Source: Peribacillus simplex
Lineage (GTDB): Bacteria; Bacillota; Bacilli; Bacillales; DSM-1321
DNA length: 64,000 nucleotides
Reading direction: 5' to 3'
Assembly: GCF_001542915.1 (NCBI RefSeq)
Contig: NZ_LNNH01000017.1
Span: 53,547 to 117,546, forward strand
Translations under genes and position numbers: made by a program
Shown here: in pieces, positions 35,966 through 46,800 of the stretch
How positions within the stretch are numbered: position 1 is the stretch's first letter
How the letters are laid out: every line of letters starts with the position of its first letter
The notes under the pieces: generated by a model
The model's input: the letters and a program-made list of their open reading frames with translations, nothing else
What the model was told of the DNA's origin: nothing
The model's database searches: none

Positions 35966-36362
35966 TTAAATATTATTATCCCAATCAACGTATTCAATTA
36001 ATTTGTCCGTTTGATCACTTGAACGTTCTCTATAATTTTCTCCATAAATGTTAATTAAATCTTTTACAGATGTACCTATTGATACATTTCGAAGTTTTGT
36101 AGCTAGAATTAAAAGCTTCAATTATCAACAGTTATTCGTTCATTAATATTTTTATCAATATTGTATATTTCATAGCCCGGAGTCTAATATCCTTAGAAAT
36201 TGTAAGGAAATGGTCCTTTCGATACTTTTCCAAACTATCCAATAAATATAATTGATTTATATTTTCTCTGGTTCAATCTGTCGTTTCTGTTTTATATGCA
36301 TGGACTGTACATCCTATGAAAGTAATGATTGCTGCCGCAAAAATGAATATCGTGAATTTCAT
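35966..36362 (-). pseudogene. Decayed small lipoprotein gene
   Basis: On the minus strand an ATG at 36360-36362 starts MKFTIFIFAAAIITFIGC, a lipoprotein signal with Cys at residue 18, but a TGA follows after 29 codons. Readable remnants continue: TRENINQLYLLDSLEKYRK in the same frame, TPGYEIYNIDKNINERITV in another, and a C-terminal block with SIGTSVKDLINIYGENYRE ending at a TAA (35966-35968). Stitched together it would encode about 130 residues. The C-terminal block resembles short sensor-like lipoprotein motifs (GTS-VKDL-YGE), but no family is assigned. No intact frame exists. Confidence 0.65.
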
Positions 36363-36394
36363 TTTCAAGTATTAAAAACCCTGAGTATTATTTT

Positions 36395-36432
36395 AAAGGG
36401 AAAATCATCCTAACAGCACCCTTTCCCTTTTT
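36395..36432 (+). terminator. Possible hairpin terminator
   Basis: AAAGGGAAA (36395-36403) and TTTCCCTTT (36422-36430) with a long loop are followed by TT. No plus-strand gene clearly uses it. The sequence from here to 36595 contains nothing else recognisable. Confidence 0.35.
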
Positions 36433-36595
36433 TCCATATACACTTCGTACCTGCTGGGACAGGCTTTTATTTCCGCACCTCCAGTATCCATTTTTATCAA
36501 GCTTCCCCTTACTCTTTATTCTTCTTTCAAGAATTGCTAAATCTGAATGATTCCCTTTTTGCCCTTATAACATTTTAAGATATCCATCCGCTTTA

Positions 36596-38284
36596 TCAAT
36601 TATCGCTTTTAAAAGCAGGCGGAATACCGATCCGATTATTCAATAAATTATTTGATGTTCCTGCTTGGAAATGAATTTCCCTTCCAACCTCGGCAAATGT
36701 GTGATCATTCTCAATCAACGTGTTGGTCAAGGTCAATGGCAGGGCTGTATAGTCATTATTAACGTTCCCGTTATTATGGGACCCGCGTATGCCGATGGCA
36801 GCGGGGATAAAGTTATGTTCGGATTTATCGATATGATGAATGCTGTTTCTATACAGTTTCGTGGACTTGTTGGAACTGAGAAACACAATCCCATTGTTGA
36901 AGCTGTTTTCAATCGTATTGTCTTCAATGATCGCATTCTTGGTCACGTGGATGCTGATACCTCCATGTGACTCTGCGGCTGCTTTGACATTGCTTACATA
37001 ATTACCCTTAATCACCACCGATTCCAAGAATCCCATCTCCCTTTTGGTCAGGTCCGTAAATTGTGATCCGTTAACGGCGATGCCTCGTTCAGTAATCGTG
37101 TCATTTTTTTCTATATCATAAACCTCATAATCATCCTGGATGCCCACTCTTTGACTGTTAATCCGATTTCCTGAAATCATAATGTCTCGAGGCGGGTAAG
37201 CGGACATCTCGCCGGCATCATACTCCATTCCCCCAACGACAATCGGGAAACGTGTATTTAAAATGACATTGTTTGTGAGGGATACGTTTTGTCCAGAGTG
37301 TGTGTCGATTCCCTCCCATGTCGGGTTATTGGCGACCACGTTCTGATCGACCACAATGGTATGACTTGGCGGAAATATCGCTTGGGTTTTGGCATCATTT
37401 CTTGTATTGATCTTCCTATGACTAAAGGCCATGCCATAGCTTTGCTGTACGCTTCCTACGGTTGCTCCTGGCAAAAGGTCACTCACGGTCGTATGCTTTA
37501 CGGACACATTATTCGCTGAGACGCCGCCAATGCCGGCATAGCCTATATCCGTGATGTTCATGCTTTTTTTATACATGGTGTCAGACCCTTTGATGGTCAC
37601 TCCATCCACATGCTCTAAATAGATGCCATACCCTTCATAGCCGCTAATTTGAACATCCTCAATCGTGATATTTTTCAGTCTTTTCGCGTCAGCATCTTTA
37701 TTAGTTGTTGGGTATGTACTGGCTAATTCATCCGTTGATTTCGTTTGATCGATGGCGGTAACCTGGATGCCTCTATGCCTTGATGCATAATACTTCCTTG
37801 GCTCCCCTGTTACGGTATCTTCTGTTTTTCTTTTCCCATCCAGATTAAGGTTTTTAATCCTAGCCTGACTTTCCAGTATTTTGATGGTAACCGGGTCACT
37901 TCTCGATTCGGTACAGATTGTCGTGACCGACTTGCCGTTCTCCATGGTTCCTTCCAATGTAACTCCAGATCGCATCACAATAAAGGCACTCGCCGTGAAA
38001 TTCCCTTTCGATAGGAGAACGGTCCCTCGGTTTCCGTTTGTTCCATTCCTTTGATATTTTGAAACGCTTAGAATCGCACTATTAACAGCAGCTCTTACTG
38101 ATGACGATGTAGAGTTCGGTGCTAACGTTGACGTTTCCATAAGCGTATTGCTGCTGTCGAATAATTGAAGTGTCGCTCCTGTTGTTGGTTCGCAAACCGG
38201 ATTGGCTGCCGATATCATGGATGGGAGAGAAAAGAAAACGGCTATAAACAGAAGGAACAATGCCGCACTTCTAAACATTTTCAT
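36596..38284 (-). CDS. Secreted right-handed beta-helix protein
   Basis: A 562-residue exported protein with an N-terminal signal peptide (about residues 3-27, cleavage probably after SMISAA). The rest, from about residue 85, is made of parallel beta-helix (PbH1/NosD-like) coils rich in Asn and Ile, for example RLKNITIEDVQISGYEGYGI and GNYVSNVKAAAESHGGISIH. Such folds occur in pectate/alginate lyases, epimerases and surface polysaccharide-binding proteins. No catalytic set could be assigned. The frame opens five codons upstream, but GAGGGG serves the ATG at 38282-38284. Transcription probably starts near 38468 from the conserved-box promoter, with a small ORF between. Confidence 0.78.
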   Translation of the reverse strand: MKMFRSAALFLLFIAVFFSLPSMISAANPVCEPTTGATLQLFDSSNTLMETSTLAPNSTSSSVRAAVNSAILSVSKYQRNGTNGNRGTVLLSKGNFTASAFIVMRSGVTLEGTMENGKSVTTICTESRSDPVTIKILESQARIKNLNLDGKRKTEDTVTGEPRKYYASRHRGIQVTAIDQTKSTDELASTYPTTNKDADAKRLKNITIEDVQISGYEGYGIYLEHVDGVTIKGSDTMYKKSMNITDIGYAGIGGVSANNVSVKHTTVSDLLPGATVGSVQQSYGMAFSHRKINTRNDAKTQAIFPPSHTIVVDQNVVANNPTWEGIDTHSGQNVSLTNNVILNTRFPIVVGGMEYDAGEMSAYPPRDIMISGNRINSQRVGIQDDYEVYDIEKNDTITERGIAVNGSQFTDLTKREMGFLESVVIKGNYVSNVKAAAESHGGISIHVTKNAIIEDNTIENSFNNGIVFLSSNKSTKLYRNSIHHIDKSEHNFIPAAIGIRGSHNNGNVNNDYTALPLTLTNTLIENDHTFAEVGREIHFQAGTSNNLLNNRIGIPPAFKSDN

Positions 38285-38326
38285 CTGAAAACCCCTCATG
38301 CTAGTTATTTATTATCCACCCTTCCT

Positions 38327-38437
38327 TCACCCAAAGATGGCTTGGGAAGATAATTTTGTGAACTCTAAAGCTTCTATAGAATGGAAACCTACCAAAGTAA
38401 TCATTGTAAGGAACGTTGCCATGGCTTTTTCTTGCAT
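38327..38437 (-). CDS. Candidate 36-residue secreted peptide gene
   Basis: An ATG at 38435-38437 with an excellent AGGAGAGAAGGA site opens a 36-residue frame (start MQEKAMATFLTMITLVGF, end TKLSSQAIFG) closed by TGA at 38327-38329. A short charged start, a hydrophobic core and a polar tail resemble a tiny secreted or signalling pre-peptide. It lies just downstream of the conserved-box promoter and 42 bp before the beta-helix gene, so both would be on one transcript. No homologue is recognised. It could also be a leader that couples translation. Confidence 0.5.
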   Translation of the reverse strand: MQEKAMATFLTMITLVGFHSIEALEFTKLSSQAIFG

Positions 38438-38474
38438 AGTCCTTCTCTCCTCTTATTTTTTTCCGTTACCAGCT

Positions 38475-38531
38475 ATATTACAAGAAAAGCGGGGACGGGA
38501 AGTTTCATAATTAAAACGCGAAATACCAAAT
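38475..38531 (-). promoter_or_regulatory. Conserved 33-bp box plus -10 element, copy 1
   Basis: The box at 38499-38531 (plus strand: GAAGTT at one end, then ATTAAAACG and GAAATACCA) matches the box at 43728-43760 in 28 of 33 positions without gaps. On the minus strand a -10-like TAATAT (38475-38480) follows after 18 bp. A GAAAAG word in the spacer is at the same place in both copies. No good -35 exists, so an activator binding the box is likely. Confidence 0.6.
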
Positions 38532-38589
38532 CTGACACTATGAAAATGAACATGCATGCTTTAAGATCGAAGAGGAGAGATTGCTGGGG

Positions 38590-38619
38590 TAGCTGTTCCT
38601 GTTAATGAAGGAACAGCTA
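38590..38619 (+). terminator. Orphan hairpin terminator
   Basis: TAGCTGTTCCT (38590-38600) and AGGAACAGCTA (38609-38619) are followed by ACACTTTT. It points along the plus strand, where no gene is evident upstream. Confidence 0.45.
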
Positions 38620-38695
38620 ACACTTTTAAAGGAAAAAGGAATCGTCTGTTCCATGTTGGTTGGTTACACTGATTTAATTTGGCTCTTGAAAACAC

Positions 38696-38731
38696 AAAGG
38701 AGATACTACTATTTGTCGTAGTATCTCCTTT
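38696..38731 (-). terminator. Terminator of the GNAT acetyltransferase gene
   Basis: AAAGGAGATACTAC and GTAGTATCTCCTTT form a 14-bp stem. It lies 37 bp past the acetyltransferase stop and is symmetrical enough to act on both strands. Confidence 0.75.
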
Positions 38732-38768
38732 TAAAGTTCTCGGATCATGCAGCTGTAATCCCGATCCT

Positions 38769-39308
38769 CTATCTTTTATTCATTTCACGCCATTCGTTTT
38801 CTAGAACACCCATTTCAATCAAATTCCAGTATTCATCACCATTTTTACGAGCATCCCTTAAAAATCCTTCTCTAACAAATCCAGCGTTTTCATAACAACG
38901 AATCGCAGATGTATTAAAATCAAAAACACCTAAGGTTACCTTATGTAGTTTTAGTTCTTCAAACGCAATTGTCAAAATGGCTTTCATCATTTCAAAACCA
39001 ATCCCTTTTCCTCTTACTTCTGGTGAACCGACCAATACCTTCCCTACTCTCGCTGATCTATGAACTCGGTCGACTTTCCCTAAAGAAATGTGTCCAATCA
39101 CTTTTTGTAAGTCTTGGTCGATTACTTTGTAAATATATGTATCAGAATCTTCTTTGTTCGCTTGTTCAAGGTATTTTTCTAGTTGCTCTTCCGTTAACGG
39201 ATATTGGAATGCAGGACCACCCCATTGCAATGCAAATTCAGCTGAAGGTATCCAATTTATTAATTGTTCTATATCTGAGCGCTCGAAATATTGTAGTTCA
39301 ATCATCAT
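38769..39308 (-). CDS. GNAT family N-acetyltransferase (RimJ/RimL type)
   Basis: A 179-residue single-domain GNAT enzyme transferring acetyl from acetyl-CoA to an amine. The acetyl-CoA binding motif A is VGKVLVGSPEVRGKGIGFEM (about residues 87-106) with the R/Q-x-x-G-x-G/A core RGKGIG. Motif B is IRCYENAGFVREGFLRD (about 135-151). The substrate is unknown; homologues in Bacillaceae are usually uncharacterised. A double ATG at 39306-39308/39303-39305 follows AAGGAGG, and either could start. It stands alone between the beta-helix and ABC operons. Confidence 0.85.
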   Translation of the reverse strand: MMIELQYFERSDIEQLINWIPSAEFALQWGGPAFQYPLTEEQLEKYLEQANKEDSDTYIYKVIDQDLQKVIGHISLGKVDRVHRSARVGKVLVGSPEVRGKGIGFEMMKAILTIAFEELKLHKVTLGVFDFNTSAIRCYENAGFVREGFLRDARKNGDEYWNLIEMGVLENEWREMNKR

Positions 39309-39463
39309 CCATCCTCCTTTTATTTTTAAATTCCGCCTTTTAGTTGAACGAAAATCCTTACCTTATTGTACATGTATGGGAATTAGCAAGCACCCTATTT
39401 TATTTAAAAGGATCGGCCTTCGCTTTTTAACAACTCATTACTCGTGAACAACTAAAATGCATT

Positions 39464-39486
39464 AAGGGACCCAATTAGGGTCCCTT
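39464..39486 (-). terminator. Terminator of the DUF2712/ABC operon
   Basis: AAGGGACCC and GGGTCCCTT with loop AATTA lie about 45 bp past the last operon gene. The T-tract on the minus strand is modest. Confidence 0.65.
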
Positions 39487-39532
39487 ACCTTATAGATTAA
39501 CTTACATCTTTAATTTTACATTGACCAGTGCA

Positions 39533-40180
39533 CTATTCGTTTTCCTGCGCGTTTACCTCCAATATCAAATTACCTGCATTTGAGATATAGCCCTCTTTTC
39601 CCGTTTTATCAATATAGACGTTATAGCCCTTTTTCAGTTCGAGCACGATTGGCTTTTTCACTTTTTCACCGATTTCCCATTGAATCGTCAGCAAGCTTTC
39701 GGTTTGCGTTTCATCTTTTATATCGACAAACACTCGGATTTTATCGCTTGTTCTTGATAGTAGATAATTCCCCGATGGTATCTCTGTACCGACCACATAA
39801 TGACCAGGATCTTTCATGATGATTTGTTGATTTTTTTTCACGACTTTTTTAAATTCAGAAGGCTTGAATTCAATCTTCCCTTTAATCGACATTTTCGAAT
39901 TTAGATAAAAAGGCCTTGCATGTAAAACAGCATTTTTGTGCATTTTATCGCCAAAAAACTCCGCTTCACTATCGAGGGCTTTAATGTCATAATGGCCCTG
40001 ATCGATATCCTTTCCGACGATGATGTTTTGTGACTCCAACACCTTATAGGAAGCTGTATTATTTTCCGTATTTCTATGATCGGCATTCATCTCTGAAGGA
40101 ACAATGTACACTTTATAAATAAGAAATCCGCTTATTAATACGAGTAAGGTTAACGCGGCTATGGTTTTATTTAGAGTCAA
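39533..40180 (-). CDS. Membrane-anchored extracytoplasmic protein, last gene of ABC operon
   Basis: A protein of about 215 residues with one N-terminal membrane segment (about 7-26, IAALTLLVLISGFLIYKVYI). The extracytoplasmic beta-rich region includes two similar stretches, VGKDIDQGHYDIKALDSEAE (about 55) and VGTEIPSGNYLLSRTSD (about 130). These look like a repeated YjgB-like or pilus-accessory-like module. No family is recognised. A TTG start at 40178-40180 with GGAGG at 8-nt spacing inside the ATPase gene fits better than the ATG five codons upstream. Overlap with the ATPase gene indicates coupling, so it may be a substrate-binding or immunity-type partner of the transporter. Confidence 0.65.
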   Translation of the reverse strand: MTLNKTIAALTLLVLISGFLIYKVYIVPSEMNADHRNTENNTASYKVLESQNIIVGKDIDQGHYDIKALDSEAEFFGDKMHKNAVLHARPFYLNSKMSIKGKIEFKPSEFKKVVKKNQQIIMKDPGHYVVGTEIPSGNYLLSRTSDKIRVFVDIKDETQTESLLTIQWEIGEKVKKPIVLELKKGYNVYIDKTGKEGYISNAGNLILEVNAQENE

Positions 40181-40808
40181 GGACGATGCCTCCATTATCC
40201 ATCTTTATATATTCATCGGCTAATGCTTCCAGGTCTTGTTTATGATGGCTTGTCAGCAGAATGAGTGCGCCGCGCTCTTTTTCTTCCTTCAAAATGCGAT
40301 AAACTAGCGTAACTCCTTCTTCGTCAATCGCATTGGTCGGTTCATCCAATAACAAGATGTCCGGTTTTTCAAATATCGCTTGAGCGACACTTAGACGCTG
40401 CTTCATTCCTAACGAAAATTTCCCTACCTTCATTTTCGATTCCGGATCAAGGCCGACTCTTCTTATATTAACTTTAATATCTTCATCCGTGGCGATGTTC
40501 CTGATTTTCGCTAATATTTTCAGATTCGTATAAGCATCATACTGGTGCAGCAGCGAAGTGTTTTCAATAATGACACTACTATTAGCCGGAAAGGAAATAT
40601 CTTTATGAAGGATTTTTTCGTCTATGGCAATTTCTCCTGAGCTTGGCATGAGCAAGCCTGCCATCGCTCTAAGCAGCATCGTTTTACCGGAGCCATTCCT
40701 TCCATACAAACCATATATTTTCCCGCTGTTAAACTCATAATTGATATCATGCAAAAGAGTTTTCTTCCTTATCTTTTTATGTAAAGAGCGAATTCGTATT
40801 GTCGTCAT
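40167..40808 (-). CDS. ABC transporter ATPase of the DUF2712-linked operon
   Basis: A 213-residue ABC ATPase with Walker A GLYGRNGSGKTML (about residues 33-45), signature FSLGMKQRLSVAQ (about 127) and Walker B DILLLDEPTNAID (about 147). It ends with the H-loop LLTSHHKQDLEAL. The short single-domain form is typical of exporter or self-protection systems (CcmA/BcrA type). It would power the three adjacent permease proteins. The ATG follows GAGGTGCACA, 11 bp after the upstream permease gene. Confidence 0.88.
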   Translation of the reverse strand: MTTIRIRSLHKKIRKKTLLHDINYEFNSGKIYGLYGRNGSGKTMLLRAMAGLLMPSSGEIAIDEKILHKDISFPANSSVIIENTSLLHQYDAYTNLKILAKIRNIATDEDIKVNIRRVGLDPESKMKVGKFSLGMKQRLSVAQAIFEKPDILLLDEPTNAIDEEGVTLVYRILKEEKERGALILLTSHHKQDLEALADEYIKMDNGGIVLDSK

Positions 40809-40819
40809 TGTGCACCTCG

Positions 40820-41542
40820 TTAAATTAAATCGATTTTCTTTAATCGTCCATATGTTAAAACAGTTAAAATGAGCGTCATTACGGTTAGTACAATATAAGC
40901 ATGTACTGCTGATATTCCGCCCATTTCAAGGACATCACTTCTTACATACATCCCGAAATTGGGAACCAAAAAATAGAGTAACCACGTCAGCTTTTGCGCA
41001 GATAAAAGAACTCCGCCCAAAGTGACCGAAACAAGCACATAAACATTTGTCAGCAATAAAGCTACTTCCTCCGTAACATGCAGCTGAAGTGCCATTTGGA
41101 TGAAAATCAAGACAAAATTGGACAACATATAAAGACTCGCTATCCAGATGAATGATTGAAAATCATCATAAAAAAAAGCCTGCTCCTCATTAGTTATAAA
41201 AGCGAATACGATCGAGAAAAGAAACTGGATGGAAGATAATCCAAATATAAGAATCATTAGATTACCGATTCTTCTAAATCCAAGCTTCACCCTGCTTTTT
41301 TCCCTGATCATCAGGTACACGCCATAACCGGAAATATACTTCCGCATATAACCGAGCGATAAAAAGCTCAAGCCAGCAAAGAACATATACCATGTTCCCA
41401 ATACAACAAACTTATTACTGACCGGAACTCCGCTAACGATCATATAGCCCGTAAGATCGGCAATAGAGCCATCAAAATAATCAAATAATAAAATTTGCAA
41501 CAAGATGATGATCAACATCAGTAAGAAGATACGTTTAGTCAT
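40820..41542 (-). CDS. ABC permease-like membrane protein 3
   Basis: A 240-residue protein with about six hydrophobic segments, the last ending in LTYGRLKKIDLI. It has no significant motif apart from being the third in a run of similar-sized six-helix proteins next to an ABC ATPase, the layout of bacteriocin-associated ABC exporters with DUF2705-type permeases. The frame opens at a TTG at 41554, but the ATG at 41540-41542 (MTKRIFLLM), overlapping the previous gene end, is the likelier start. Confidence 0.68.
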   Translation of the reverse strand: MTKRIFLLMLIIILLQILLFDYFDGSIADLTGYMIVSGVPVSNKFVVLGTWYMFFAGLSFLSLGYMRKYISGYGVYLMIREKSRVKLGFRRIGNLMILIFGLSSIQFLFSIVFAFITNEEQAFFYDDFQSFIWIASLYMLSNFVLIFIQMALQLHVTEEVALLLTNVYVLVSVTLGGVLLSAQKLTWLLYFLVPNFGMYVRSDVLEMGGISAVHAYIVLTVMTLILTVLTYGRLKKIDLI

Positions 41543-42266
41543 CGGAAACACCAACCAGGAAATCTTTTTCCTCTATTGCAAACAGCCCAAGTAAAGCCAT
41601 CACGAGAGATAGCGATACCTCTTTTCCTAACAAAATCAACGATTGATATCCGGTCATTCCGCTGCTTAAAAAAGGATCGATTACATTTGCATCACTGGCA
41701 GGGCCCCATGCCAGATTCAGCTGACTCTTCATTACATATAAGAAAAAACAAATACAAAAGGTCGCTGCCATCGCCATGATTGAATTGGAATAATCAAAAA
41801 TGAAATAATAAAGCAGGCCAATCGAGAAATAGATACACGTCAATAATGCTAGATTAAGAAGTGTTAGTTTCCAAAAATCCGAAGATACAAAATGAAATCG
41901 ATCAAATAGGAACACAGCTGCGAAATGAATCAATAAGATGCTGAACGCAAAGATAAACGAACTGATAAAAACTTGGATCGTCCGTCTACGATACAAATCA
42001 ATTCTGGATGTGAAGCGAACGATCCTGTGCGGATGCTCATCTTCAATAAAAAAACGATAAAACAGTAACAAAGGAATCATATATGTGATCAATAAATTTT
42101 TAACCGAGAGATAGCCTTCTACACTTCCACTTACATCAATGATCAATGGATACGCTGGATCTAGCTGCTTGATTTTTAAATAATGAATATTATAGGTCAT
42201 CCATAAACATCCAAATAAAAAACATAGCAGCAGGGATACATACACTTTTTTTTGATTAGATTTCAT
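41535..42266 (-). CDS. ABC permease-like membrane protein 2
   Basis: A 243-residue six-helix membrane protein. Between helices two and three is a cytoplasmic stretch with HRIVRFTSRIDLYRRRTIQV (about 82-100). It overlaps both neighbouring permease genes by 8-11 bp, so the three are translated together. Similarity to DUF2705-type bacteriocin-associated permeases is from recalled pattern only. The start may be GTG at 42269 or ATG at 42266, with AAGGTGAAAA upstream. No conserved catalytic residues are expected. Confidence 0.68.
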   Translation of the reverse strand: MKSNQKKVYVSLLLCFLFGCLWMTYNIHYLKIKQLDPAYPLIIDVSGSVEGYLSVKNLLITYMIPLLLFYRFFIEDEHPHRIVRFTSRIDLYRRRTIQVFISSFIFAFSILLIHFAAVFLFDRFHFVSSDFWKLTLLNLALLTCIYFSIGLLYYFIFDYSNSIMAMAATFCICFFLYVMKSQLNLAWGPASDANVIDPFLSSGMTGYQSLILLGKEVSLSLVMALLGLFAIEEKDFLVGVSDD

Positions 42267-43020
42267 CACTTTTCACCTTATACAGAAACCCGGCCGTGAT
42301 GATCGCTAAAAACAGGATGGTCGATCTAAAGAAAATCAACCCGAAAGCTTCCAAGGTCACTTCGTTAAAAGGCTGGATGATCATGGCCAATGAATAATTC
42401 AGTCCTAAAATTTGTGAAAACCAAATAACAAAGCTTAACGGATATGTATACTTCATATCCGGGAAACACCAGCTAAGGACAGTCGCCATCCCTGCGCATA
42501 AGCTCGTGTAAAACCCAAAAATGATGATATAAACCACATTGGCGACAGCAGGCATTTGGTTGGCGAGTGTATATATAGGATTTTCCGGAAATAAATCCGG
42601 GGTCAACCCAGTGTCAAATTCACCATTCCTGAATACCAAATAGACAATGAACATATTTAACAGCAAGCAACCAACCATCACTAAAAAGGAAAATGACATA
42701 TTTCCCAATAACATCGTTTTATAATAAGCATATCGCCCTTTTTTGGTCGCTACGATATAATGGTAGCCTGTTTTATAGTCTTGAATATAGCTGTCGGCGC
42801 ACATGATTAATAGAAAAATGGGCAAAAACCAGATTAGTAGTATTTGCATCATATGACCTAATGAACTTGCCGCTAAAAAAGTGGCTAGATGGGGCATGAT
42901 CCATGATTCTGAAACATTGCCGATCAAGATAAAGATATCAATCATGACAATCGCCATTATACATAACACGATGAACTTTGTTTTTTTATTATGTGTTAAT
43001 CGATAATAATAACTATTCAT
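42256..43020 (-). CDS. ABC permease-like membrane protein 1
   Basis: A 254-residue protein with about six membrane segments. The cytoplasmic loop has SYIQDYKTGYHYIVATKKGR (about 92-111), a motif shared with ABC-2 type permeases of lantibiotic immunity and export systems (a stretch between helices two and three linking to the ATPase). The ATG follows AAAGGGAGACTAA. It is the first of three permeases and lies 70 bp after the small secreted DUF2712-like gene. Confidence 0.7.
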   Translation of the reverse strand: MNSYYYRLTHNKKTKFIVLCIMAIVMIDIFILIGNVSESWIMPHLATFLAASSLGHMMQILLIWFLPIFLLIMCADSYIQDYKTGYHYIVATKKGRYAYYKTMLLGNMSFSFLVMVGCLLLNMFIVYLVFRNGEFDTGLTPDLFPENPIYTLANQMPAVANVVYIIIFGFYTSLCAGMATVLSWCFPDMKYTYPLSFVIWFSQILGLNYSLAMIIQPFNEVTLEAFGLIFFRSTILFLAIITAGFLYKVKSDEI

Positions 43021-43090
43021 TTAGTCTCCCTTTATAAGGCCACCTTGAATCAACGATCATCCAAGGTAGCATCACCATATTCATCATTTT

Positions 43091-43576
43091 TTATTTATTA
43101 TATTCTGTGGTGTATGTTTCTTTATACTGTCCAGGTAATATCCTCCCTGTCTCTTCATCCCAATATCCGTTTACGGAATAGGTGCTAGAACTCACATTAT
43201 TATTCTCAGCCGTTAACCTAACATTAGCCGCATTCGCACCTGCATTGCCTTTAACATAATGATTTCGCCCACTATTTAAACCGCCGCTACCAGCTGTAAC
43301 TTTAACTGAAGGAGATACGTTCGTGCCGTTGCTTTTTTCGAGCCAATACGTCGTTACCGTATTAGTTCCTTCTGTTGATTTATACATTCTCACTTTCCAT
43401 GTATTCCGTTCTGTAGTCGTTTGACGATACTCTGTGCCTGTGTACGAATTTTTTTGATCCTTCTGAATTGTAAATGAATACTTGTTATTCTCATTTCCAG
43501 CCTCAACTGATAGTGTTCCTAACCCAATCGAGCAAGCTAAAATGGTCCCTAATGCTATTACTCTTATTTTTTTCAT
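43091..43576 (-). CDS. Small secreted DUF2712-like protein heading the ABC operon
   Basis: A 161-residue exported protein. The signal peptide covers about residues 1-26 (MKKIRVIALGTILACSIG, cleavage after VEA). The mature part of about 135 residues is polar, Asn/Thr-rich and without cysteine. It has YRQTTTERNTWKV, TYWLEKSNGTNVS, LTAENNNVSSSTYSVNGY and ending WDEETG near 145. I recall this pattern as DUF2712, a Bacillaceae family with no known role, often beside DUF2705-type ABC genes. The ATG has CAGGAGGATATAAC upstream. A conserved-box promoter 130 bp upstream is shared with the beta-helix unit. A bacteriocin-like or signalling role is only a hypothesis. Confidence 0.72.
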   Translation of the reverse strand: MKKIRVIALGTILACSIGLGTLSVEAGNENNKYSFTIQKDQKNSYTGTEYRQTTTERNTWKVRMYKSTEGTNTVTTYWLEKSNGTNVSPSVKVTAGSGGLNSGRNHYVKGNAGANAANVRLTAENNNVSSSTYSVNGYWDEETGRILPGQYKETYTTEYNK

Positions 43577-43703
43577 GTTATATCCTCCTGATATGAAATA
43601 AGTGCATTTTCTTGGCGCTGGCCATTGTAGTCACTTCAAAAATTTTTTGATGTTTTTTTCATCCCTGTTCTTTCGCTCATCTCCTTTGATCCAGTAAAGA
43701 TTC

Positions 43704-43760
43704 ATAATACTGGAAAAGAGAGTATATGAAGTTCCAATATTAAAACGGGAAATACCATAT
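43704..43760 (-). promoter_or_regulatory. Conserved 33-bp box plus -10 element, copy 2
   Basis: Box at 43728-43760; -10-like TATTAT on the minus strand at 43704-43709, 18 bp away as in copy 1. The -35 position reads ACTTCA, a weak match. Transcription would start near 43697 and cross a tiny ORF (MSERTG start, 14 codons) before the DUF2712-like gene. Confidence 0.6.
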
Positions 43761-43827
43761 TTGAAATTTCACTCCAAGCTCATAGCATCGCTGATGGAGC
43801 GGAGCCTCCCTTTTTTCCCACAACAAA

Positions 43828-43859
43828 AAGGCCGTTTAACATATTCGTTAAACGGCCTT
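43828..43859 (-). terminator. Terminator of the subtilisin-like protease gene
   Basis: AAGGCCGTTTAA and TTAAACGGCCTT form a 12-bp stem. On the minus strand five T residues follow. Confidence 0.85.
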
Positions 43860-43868
43860 CGCGCATTG

Positions 43869-46800
43869 CTATTTGGATTTTTTCACGGTTACTTTTGTTG
43901 CTTTTCCTGTATTGCCTGCTTTATCTTTTGCTGAGACATATAACACGGACCCTGCTTTTTGCTTGCTGATTTTGACGGAGTAGTTCCCCTTCTTATCAGC
44001 GGTTGCCGTTCCGATGTTTTTATTGTTTTGCTTTACGGTAACTTTTGAACCCGCTTCCGCTTTACCTGTTACTTTTGTTGCTTTGTCATTCACTTCATTC
44101 ACTTTCGGTGCGGATGGTGCGGTTTTATCTTTCACTGTTACCTTTGTTGCTTTTCCTGTATTGCCCGCTTTGTCTTTTGCTGAGACATATAACACGGATC
44201 CTGCTTTTTTCTTGCTGATTTTGACGGAGTAGTTCCCCTTCTTATCAACGGTTGCCGTTCCGATGCTTTTATTGTTGTACTTCACGGTAACGGTTGAGCT
44301 CACTTCCGCTTTACCTGTTACTTTGGTGGCGCTGTCGCTTACTTCATTCACTTTCGGTGCATCCGGGGCGGTTTTATCGAGAACCGTCACGGCTGCTGCC
44401 TTGCTTTCGCGTTTTGCTAGATCAGTTGCTGTGACCGACAGTTTGGAGCCGGCCTTTTGTTTGCTGATTTTGACTTTGAAATTTCCTTTGCTGTCCGTGT
44501 TTGCTGAGCCGATCACTTTTTTCGCACTGTTTTTGACCGTGACTTTCACCTCGGCTTGCGATTGACCCGTTACATACACGTCTTTGTCGCTGACAGGCTT
44601 AACGGTTGGCTTAGCAGGGGTTGCACCCTTGTTCACGAATACTTTGATTGAAGAAGTTGCCAGTTTGGCAGAATCAGAGATATGCACAGTCAGCATCTGC
44701 TCCGCTTTTTGGACCGGAATCTTGATAGTGAACGTTCCGTTAGCAGCCGCCGTTGCTTTACCTAGTGATTTACTTCCGCTTTTCACTTCGATCGCCGAAC
44801 CTTTTTTAGCCGTTCCAGTCAGGGTTGTTTTATTATCGAATACAGAGTTGACCTTTGCTTGTAAATCCACAGCACTTAGTGCACTGAAAGCATTCAATCT
44901 TCCGTATCCTGATACTAAATCTTTACCGACAGGCAGTTCCTCTTGAGGAATGATGATTTCTCCATCTTCATCTTCATATTCCTCAGTAGGGTAAGCATTA
45001 TCTTCTTCTTCGAATTTCACATATTCGGAGGTATCATGAAGGATTTGCCTTACTTCATTCACCTTCAATCCAGGGTTTGCGGATAATAACAGCGCTGTAG
45101 CTGCCGCAACATGCGGAGCTGCCATCGACGTACCATCCATATACGTAACGTTTCCATTAGGGACAAGGCTTGGGATGGCTGTCCCAGGGGCGACCATGTC
45201 CAATTGGAATCCATAATTGGAATAATCGGATACTAAGTCAAGAGCATTGGTTGCACCGACGGAAATCGCATATTTGGATGATGCCGGATAAGATAGAGCT
45301 TCCACCCCATCATTACCGCTTGCCACGATAACCATTACATTCTTCGCAGCTGCTTCCTTCAAGGCATATTCGATCGTCCTGCTGTATTCTCCGCCCAAAC
45401 TTAAGTTTATTACCTTGGCACCGTGATCGACGGCATATTTAATGCCCAGTGCAATTTTCTCGTTATCTCCATAGCCTGAAGAATCAAGCACCTTTACAGG
45501 CATGATTTTCGCTAATGGATTGATTCCTTGCATCGAATATCCGTTATCCGCTTTGGCAGCGATGATGCCGGATACATGTGTTCCATGGCCATTGTCATCG
45601 ATGGCATTGCCTTTTTTATCGATGAAATTCTTGCCTAAGTCCATGCGGACACGATCTTGCAAATCAGCCAGTGAATCATCGACACCCGTGTCGACGACCG
45701 CCACCAATGTTTCCTTTAAATTACGTTTTTTAATCAAGGCTTGCAGTTTTTCGTTATCGATGTCCGCGCCCTTGATGCCTTCTTCTCCACCAGGATTATT
45801 CAACGACCATTGATACGGTGACTGAATATCGGCTGAAAGAGCTTTATACGTTTTGACCGGCTCAATATATTCCACTTCTGAAAGGTTTTCGATCGATGAT
45901 AGAGCTGATGCGCTCATCTTGGCTTGGCTCTTTAACTCCACGACGTACATATCATCATACATTGGCTCTTGCTTCTCGGGAGTCGACAGTTTTCCATATC
46001 CTTTTCCGCTTACCTTGGATTGGAAGGAGCTTAATGACTTCCCAGGTTTAAGTTTGACGATGTATTTGTTTTTTGTATTTTTTGAAGCTGGCAGCTCGAT
46101 TCCCGCTTTACTTGCGATATCGACTACCTTTACCCCTGCAAGATCCTCAAGATCGATTTTCTTTGCCAGGCTTTCCATATCCTTTTTCAATCCAGCCGGT
46201 GCGGCATCCGCAGCCATAGTGTACAATTCTTTAATTGCTTCTTGCTGTTTGCCTTTTTCAATGACTGCGGTGCTGCTTGCTCCGTTTTCATTTAGATCAT
46301 CAATCAGCGGCTTAATCTCGACTAAATATTTATACGCGGCATCCCTCGCTTTTTTATTGCTAGCCAGATGATAGGCAAGGAATGGCGAAGCCTTATAGTA
46401 TAAAGAAGAAAGGCTGCGTCCCTCAGACGACGTCGTGAGAACTTCATCTCTAAACACACGGAGTGATTTCAACAATGATTCACCCGTTTTCTTGTCGTAC
46501 GCACTCACTTCGACCGGACATTCTTCAAGTCCCATCTCCTCTTCCCCAGCGGATGGCGGCAAGGTTACCGAATGGGCATTGATGGAATATCCCGCTTCAT
46601 TTTTGGCATCCGGGATTGGATTTCCTTCATCATCCGTTTCGCCTAAATATTCAACTTTCACATAATACGTTCCTTCCCAGGCATATGGGAAATCAATGAC
46701 GGCTTTTTCATCCGGATAAGAAGAAAACCAATAGTTGCTCTCATCCTTTTCGGCTTTTTCCTTACTTGAATAGACGGATATATTCAAAATTTTATCCGAA

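Follow-up and report, generated by a model that had tools for sequence, protein, structure and literature searches.

Tandem 14-bp palindromes at a fixed distance from a -10-like hexamer suggest an activator-dependent operator-promoter in Peribacillus simplex and its relatives

Background

The 64,000-nucleotide (nt) stretch of Peribacillus simplex DNA analysed here, referred to as the window (contig NZ_LNNH01000017.1, positions 53,547 to 117,546), carries two closely similar boxes, one ahead of a short open reading frame (ORF) and a beta-helix protein gene, and the other ahead of a DUF2712 gene and its ATP-binding cassette (ABC) operon. The question raised by this locus is whether the boxes are regulatory sites, as a sequence-only reading had proposed, or merely repeats. 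In this study, we report that both belong to a 35-bp element that recurs in the genus at a fixed distance from a -10-like hexamer, and consider it probable that each serves as operator for a sigma-A-type promoter that depends on an activator and belongs to a small Peribacillus regulon.

Results

The two boxes of the window

The boxes occupy positions 38499-38531 (copy 1, W1) and 43728-43760 (copy 2, W2) of the minus strand and are identical, ungapped, at 28/33 positions, as had been reported; the runner-up match to either box within the window reaches 21/33. The -10-like hexamers TAATAT (38480-38475) and TATTAT (43709-43704) do lie exactly 18 bp beyond each box, and a good -35 is indeed missing, the best TTGACA match being 2/6 in both copies (spacing 16-18 bp). 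The proposed 33-bp extent needed revision: the box is real, but the conserved element begins 6 bp further upstream and is 35 bp long, and the terminal CTTC of the box is dispensable, G016 and G031 lacking it with an unchanged distance to the hexamer. The spacer word GAAAAG, scored by eye, is present in W1 and W2, but cannot be called general, since it occurs in only 3/13 intact window-locus boxes (W1, W2 and G030b). No Rfam family was found in window positions 36000-44500. The parts of the two copies are as follows.

38524..38537, minus strand: distal palindrome of copy 1, TGTCAGATTTGGTA, centred at about -62.5
38503..38516, minus strand: proximal palindrome of copy 1, TTTTAATTATGAAA, centred at about -41.5
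38475..38480, minus strand: -10-like hexamer TAATAT of copy 1, 22 bp past the proximal palindrome
38696..38731, minus strand: terminator-like hairpin on the upstream side of copy 1
43753..43766, minus strand: distal palindrome of copy 2, TTTCAAATATGGTA
43732..43745, minus strand: proximal palindrome of copy 2, TTTTAATATTGGAA
43704..43709, minus strand: -10-like hexamer TATTAT of copy 2
43827..43860, minus strand: terminator-like hairpin on the upstream side of copy 2

With a terminator-like hairpin ahead of it, either box could begin its own transcription unit.

Anatomy of the element

Searches of the genus covered 36 genomes (G000 being the own genome) and gave 34 distinct 35-mers. Each holds the 14-bp palindrome TTYCA-N4-TGRAA twice, at a distance of 21 bp, and the invariant letters fall nearly all within the palindromes, together with one C two bases ahead of the second. 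Over the 34 sequences, class-weighted, the complementary fraction averaged 0.30 across all placements and reached 0.69 in the distal palindrome, 0.76 in the proximal one and 0.82 in the outer arms. Direct-repeat identity peaked at offset 21 (0.60) and did not exceed 0.46 at any other offset between 5 and 30; two dyads at this offset, each above background, fit one face of the helix.

The hexamer TANNAT stands at +22 from the right palindrome in 31/34 elements (other offsets tested, at most 4/34). The three that deviate are G030a, at 23 bp, a glutamate-synthase site reading TAATAG, and the small-ORF site of G013. The best -35 match is 3/6 or less in 33/34 elements. If the hexamer is placed at -12 to -7, the palindrome centres would fall at -41.5 and -62.5, the position expected of an activator that replaces the -35. 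When seven locus classes were compared, the two palindromes reached identities of 0.67 and 0.78 and the hexamer 0.67, against 0.52 for the 7-bp linker and 0.28-0.37 for the flanks and spacer, so that clear likeness among the classes is limited to the palindromes and the hexamer.

Left out of the 34 were the damaged window-locus elements of G001, G006, G019 and G020, the G030 orphan, the G018 window copies (35-mers equal to W1 and W2), the c32 35-mer of G019 (equal to that of G020), five sites at second DUF2712 paralogues, and G024:C1:4742433, despite its TAAAAT at +22 and loose score of 11/14. The G013 metalloprotease site has the same score but was retained, since a G030 site has a similar spacer and a similar lipoprotein downstream.

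Genes behind the two boxes

The gene content agreed with the earlier description of the two units. Export signals of the window proteins were assigned by eye.

38327..38437, minus strand: 36-codon ORF, MQEKAMATFLTMITLVGFHSIEALEFTKLSSQAIFG, downstream of copy 1
36596..38299, minus strand: beta-helix protein (PF13229), second gene of the copy 1 unit, signal-like N-terminus
43091..43576, minus strand: DUF2712 protein (PF10916) behind copy 2, signal-like N-terminus
39533..43020, minus strand: ABC genes 3' of the DUF2712 gene
42256-43020, minus strand: membrane protein of the ABC operon, DUF2705 just under the cut-off
41535-42269, minus strand: membrane protein of the ABC operon, WxPxxD
40820-41554, minus strand: membrane protein of the ABC operon, DUF2705
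40167-40808, minus strand: ATPase of the ABC operon
39533-40195, minus strand: 220-amino-acid (aa) protein of the ABC operon

The DUF2712-ABC genes presumably resemble yybNMLKJ of B. subtilis. A GNAT acetyltransferase gene (window 38769-39308) sits between the ABC operon and copy 1, and was not seen at several relatives' loci within the stretches compared.

Recurrence at the window locus

With at most 3 mismatches allowed, a 27-letter motif occurred 12 times, in 9/36 genomes, and the reversed pattern not at all. All 12 lie at one syntenic locus, with leuS and a subtilase-like gene on one side and LysR and glutamate synthase genes on the other (these unlabelled names, like ipdC, deacetylase and LysM, were read from translations by eye). 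This pattern does not contain the hexamer, and TANNAT nevertheless followed 18 bp past the match in 11/12 hits and 19 bp in one. Profile R1 detected the window-locus element in 15/36 genomes, where it is followed by the DUF2712-ABC operon, the 36-aa peptide and beta-helix gene, or the remains of either. Profile R3 gave 35 matches at E<=1e-5 in 15/36 genomes, of which 11/35 were the model's own input sequences. An 18-letter pattern was too weak in the own genome (27 hits at up to 3 mismatches against 16 for the reversed control).

The window-locus element is damaged in four genomes, by a 1-bp deletion in G019 and G020, a 1-bp insertion in G001, and CGTCAT in place of the hexamer in G006. The genus search found no DUF2712 match in these same four, so that damage to the element accompanies the missing intact DUF2712 gene. 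G030 has tandem DUF2712 genes with an element each (L047 9206-10867), and an orphan element after its DUF2712 operon (L129:1517) in which one arm is shifted and the hexamer is missing.

A pattern scan across named genomes returned 19 stretches, in Peribacillus sp. SI8-4 and P. muralis and, for the other 17, in scattered taxa; these 17 stretches and four viral contigs are taken as chance matches. Plasmids and phages gave short-piece matches only. DUF2712 itself occurs on two Priestia plasmids and in one Listeria record.

Recurrence at other loci

The element was found at five separate loci: the window; the intergenic region behind an ipdC-like gene; a glutamate-synthase-like gene; a lipoprotein/secreted-protein locus; and a small-ORF locus. 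The number is five because the G030 and G013 lipoprotein sites look orthologous.

The site behind the ipdC-like gene was found by profile R2 in the own genome, G018 and G014, and by R3 in 15/36 genomes, assigned from flanking genes (in G006 and G030 from the downstream side only). Its palindromes are the most regular ones. The following short ORF is, in several genomes, Fbp-like (PF13040, E 8e-5) or Spo0E-like (PF09388, E 0.0074), both below the cut-off, and about 600 nt separate this promoter from the next large gene (L283:4562-5188 and orthologues). Weak R1 matches flank the glutamate-synthase-like gene (PF01645), before and after it in G014 and before it in G030; they end short of the hexamer, with TAATAT or TAATAG still at the usual distance, and a terminator-like stretch lies closely 3' of the second G014 site. 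Further R3 sites stand ahead of a lipoprotein and of a secreted protein in G030, and in G013 ahead of a small ORF and of an M10-like metalloprotease (PF00413, E 2.8e-8) that is accompanied by a related lipoprotein. Lowest-scoring of the 34 are the metalloprotease site, at E 0.009, and the second G030 site, at 8.8e-5. Among the targets, the DUF2712, beta-helix, M10-like metalloprotease and lipoprotein products look exported, and those of the glutamate-synthase-like gene and the small Fbp-like or Spo0E-like ORFs do not.

A second DUF2712 operon

The own genome has a second DUF2712-ABC operon (G000:C12:291195-295208; L132:3196-7209). A variant of the element lies 370-450 bp ahead of the second DUF2712 gene in 5/5 genomes examined (G000, G014, G013, G024 and G030), with an outer arm TNYCA or TTTCT, the proximal palindrome 21 bp on (perfect in G024, TTTCAAATTTGAAA) and TAAAAT precisely at +22. 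The inner half-site of the distal palindrome has been lost. The variant scored E 0.01-0.19 with R1 and R2 and gave no match up to 0.02 with R3, and it lies inside a long hairpin that alone could account for its symmetry. The variant is a probable member of the set, though not a confident one.

The 36-aa peptide behind copy 1

Three species carry the ORF at its full 36-aa length, with 19/36 residues invariant and the ending IFG. Clear matches across the 36 genomes were confined to G000, G018, G013 and G024; others (E 0.017 and worse) were chance-like, seven having been inspected. Nonsynonymous against synonymous codon changes numbered 14 to 9, 10 to 8 and 11 to 3, and second-position changes were few (4, 3 and 1). 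It is plausible that the ORF is coding, although these changes do not demonstrate strong purifying selection. The peptide could be a pheromone precursor, perhaps of the Phr/NprX-like kind.

Discussion

An activator site as the preferred reading

The observations suggest a mechanism in which a dimeric activator would bind the two tandem palindromes (centred near -62.5 and -41.5) on the same helical face and contact RNA polymerase, standing in for the missing -35, with the promoter opening at TANNAT. One such activator may serve a small regulon in part of the genus, predicted to include the DUF2712-ABC operon, the 36-aa peptide and beta-helix unit, a transcript behind the ipdC-like gene, the glutamate-synthase-like gene and a few exported proteins. 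The earlier suggestion of selection on an activator or unusual sigma site thus finds support in its first half, because the element recurs with the same -10 distance at separate loci in relatives and because clear identity between classes is confined to palindromes and hexamer; the unusual sigma factor is not needed.

Several points weigh against this reading. The 34 elements were gathered by N25 arm geometry, mostly with hexamer-containing models, so that the fixed spacing and the figure of 31/34 are partly by construction, and c38a, c38b and c100 are not independent loci in the seven-class comparison. Over 625,270 positions, a loose 14-letter score of at least 11 with the hexamer came up 26 times: 17 cases belong to elements described above, and the other 9, among them several copies of one coding stretch, are chance-like. 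Loose scores of 11-12/14 with a hexamer arise by chance at several places in 0.3 Mb, and the weakest members (c100, c38b) rest on little for that reason. The own genome has three confident sites only. An intact element precedes a truncated DUF2712 gene in G029, a broken one in G021 and a degenerate peptide ORF in G014, and the full element was not found at the DUF2712 genes of G007 and G012 or at 12 DUF2712 loci in other genera (B. subtilis not among them). No fitting regulator emerged from searches for AimR, RNPP_C and, among the matches listed, CRP/FNR; LuxR-type response regulators were not searched.

Candidate regulators

The peptide behind copy 1 invites a wider proposal, that it is the secreted pheromone of a new quorum-sensing circuit in which an activator with the 35-bp tandem operator would turn on its own signal peptide, secreted proteins, the ABC transporter and other genes, and that parts of the genus have lost this circuit or keep it in reduced form. 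We regard this as doubtful.

It is unlikely that a single AimR-like (RRNPP) dimer stretches over the whole element and recognises nothing but its outer arms (TTTCA-N25-TGAAA), the 36-aa peptide serving as pheromone precursor. The AimR operator of the SPbeta arbitrium system is described, in an excerpt of PMC6458997, as a pair of inverted 6-bp boxes separated by 25 bp, with a G/C pair midway, and the element shares the inverted arms 25 bp apart and the G/C in the middle. In addition, the outer-arm complementarity (0.82) exceeds that of either single palindrome, the peptide gene lies directly behind copy 1, and the second-DUF2712 variant retains the outer arms and proximal palindrome better than the distal inner half-site. 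However, the inner half-sites TGGTA and TTTYA are conserved too in the 34 elements, which fits two palindromes and differs from the AimR operator. Canonical AimR (NF038310) was above the cut-off in only 3/36 genomes, none with an R3 match at E<=1e-5, in a search that did not take in RRNPP genes lacking an AimR or RNPP_C match. The three genes are at G010:C8:139319, G003:C1:2850845 and G022:C1:2071377, the last of which looks truncated.

It is decidedly improbable that the activator is the clade's PlcR-like RNPP receptor (297 aa, G000:C12:148093). This receptor occurs in all 16 genomes that carry the element at the window or ipdC site (the G018 sequence was not inspected), and another 5 have it too, whereas the remaining 15 have no R3 match at E<=1e-5; this co-occurrence is, however, confounded by shared descent. 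The receptor's own locus bears a different palindrome, ATAGAA-N5-TTCTAT, in 19/19 loci examined, and R3 found no match up to E 3 in 20 receptor loci. In the own genome the locus (G000:C12:147537-148740; L209:2538-3741) holds the receptor and a divergent 37-aa Phr-like gene with a doubled ELPGLY motif, MKKSTKALVVSFLLIAAIVIVPTELPGLYAELPGLYK, and the conserved palindrome stands between the two genes. A Phr-like gene with this doubled motif lies next to the receptor at 17/19 loci; in G013 and G014 the receptor has diverged, and no ELPGLY Phr-like peptide was found there. In the PlcR regulon of the Bacillus cereus group, a palindromic box precedes exported-protein genes and a peptide gene belongs to the regulon. 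The present element shares both traits but differs in sequence, and the PlcR-like receptor has another palindrome at its own locus.

Class II promoters of the CRP/FNR family (FNR and PrfA boxes) likewise have a 14-bp palindrome near -41.5 and no good -35, but here there are two palindromes 21 bp apart, and to our knowledge the half-site TTYCA is not that of CRP, FNR or PrfA. CRP/FNR genes (PF13545) are present in these genomes, but among the matches listed none was seen to fit: G013 showed weak matches only (2e-5) and no clear copy of the two best groups. The yybN operon of B. subtilis, where PF10916 has matches, shares DUF2712 with ABC genes. It differs in that the B. subtilis region is bound by Rok, according to an excerpt of PMC2978689, and in that the 12 DUF2712 loci compared from other genera gave no full element.

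Repeats or an unusual sigma site

It is very unlikely that the boxes are merely repeats left by an old duplication of promoter and leader at one locus, with no regulatory meaning. The 60 bp past the hexamer are 34/60 identical between W1 and W2, and all hits of the 27-letter motif are at one syntenic locus. Given the likeness past the hexamer, an old duplication of promoter and leader is possible for W1 and W2; the earlier dismissal of a recent duplication holds for the upstream sides (6/60 identical). Against repeats alone stand this lack of upstream identity and the other loci, which carry the element amid unlike flanks. A promoter for an unusual sigma factor, for which the absence of a sigma-A -35 would speak, is scarcely credible, as a TANNAT hexamer and a 35-bp element whose two symmetric palindromes are separated by two helical turns better suit an activator than a -35.

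Conclusions

The palindrome sequence, in six spellings, was not found in the literature searched, nor were the name DUF2712 or the combination of Peribacillus, regulon, quorum sensing and secreted, which does not prove their absence from print. The element appears to be a real operator-promoter of a generally known kind, in which an activator would use tandem sites, with a small, clade-level regulon. As such, it would offer a precise operator for a Peribacillus regulon and a handle on the control of DUF2712-ABC operons.

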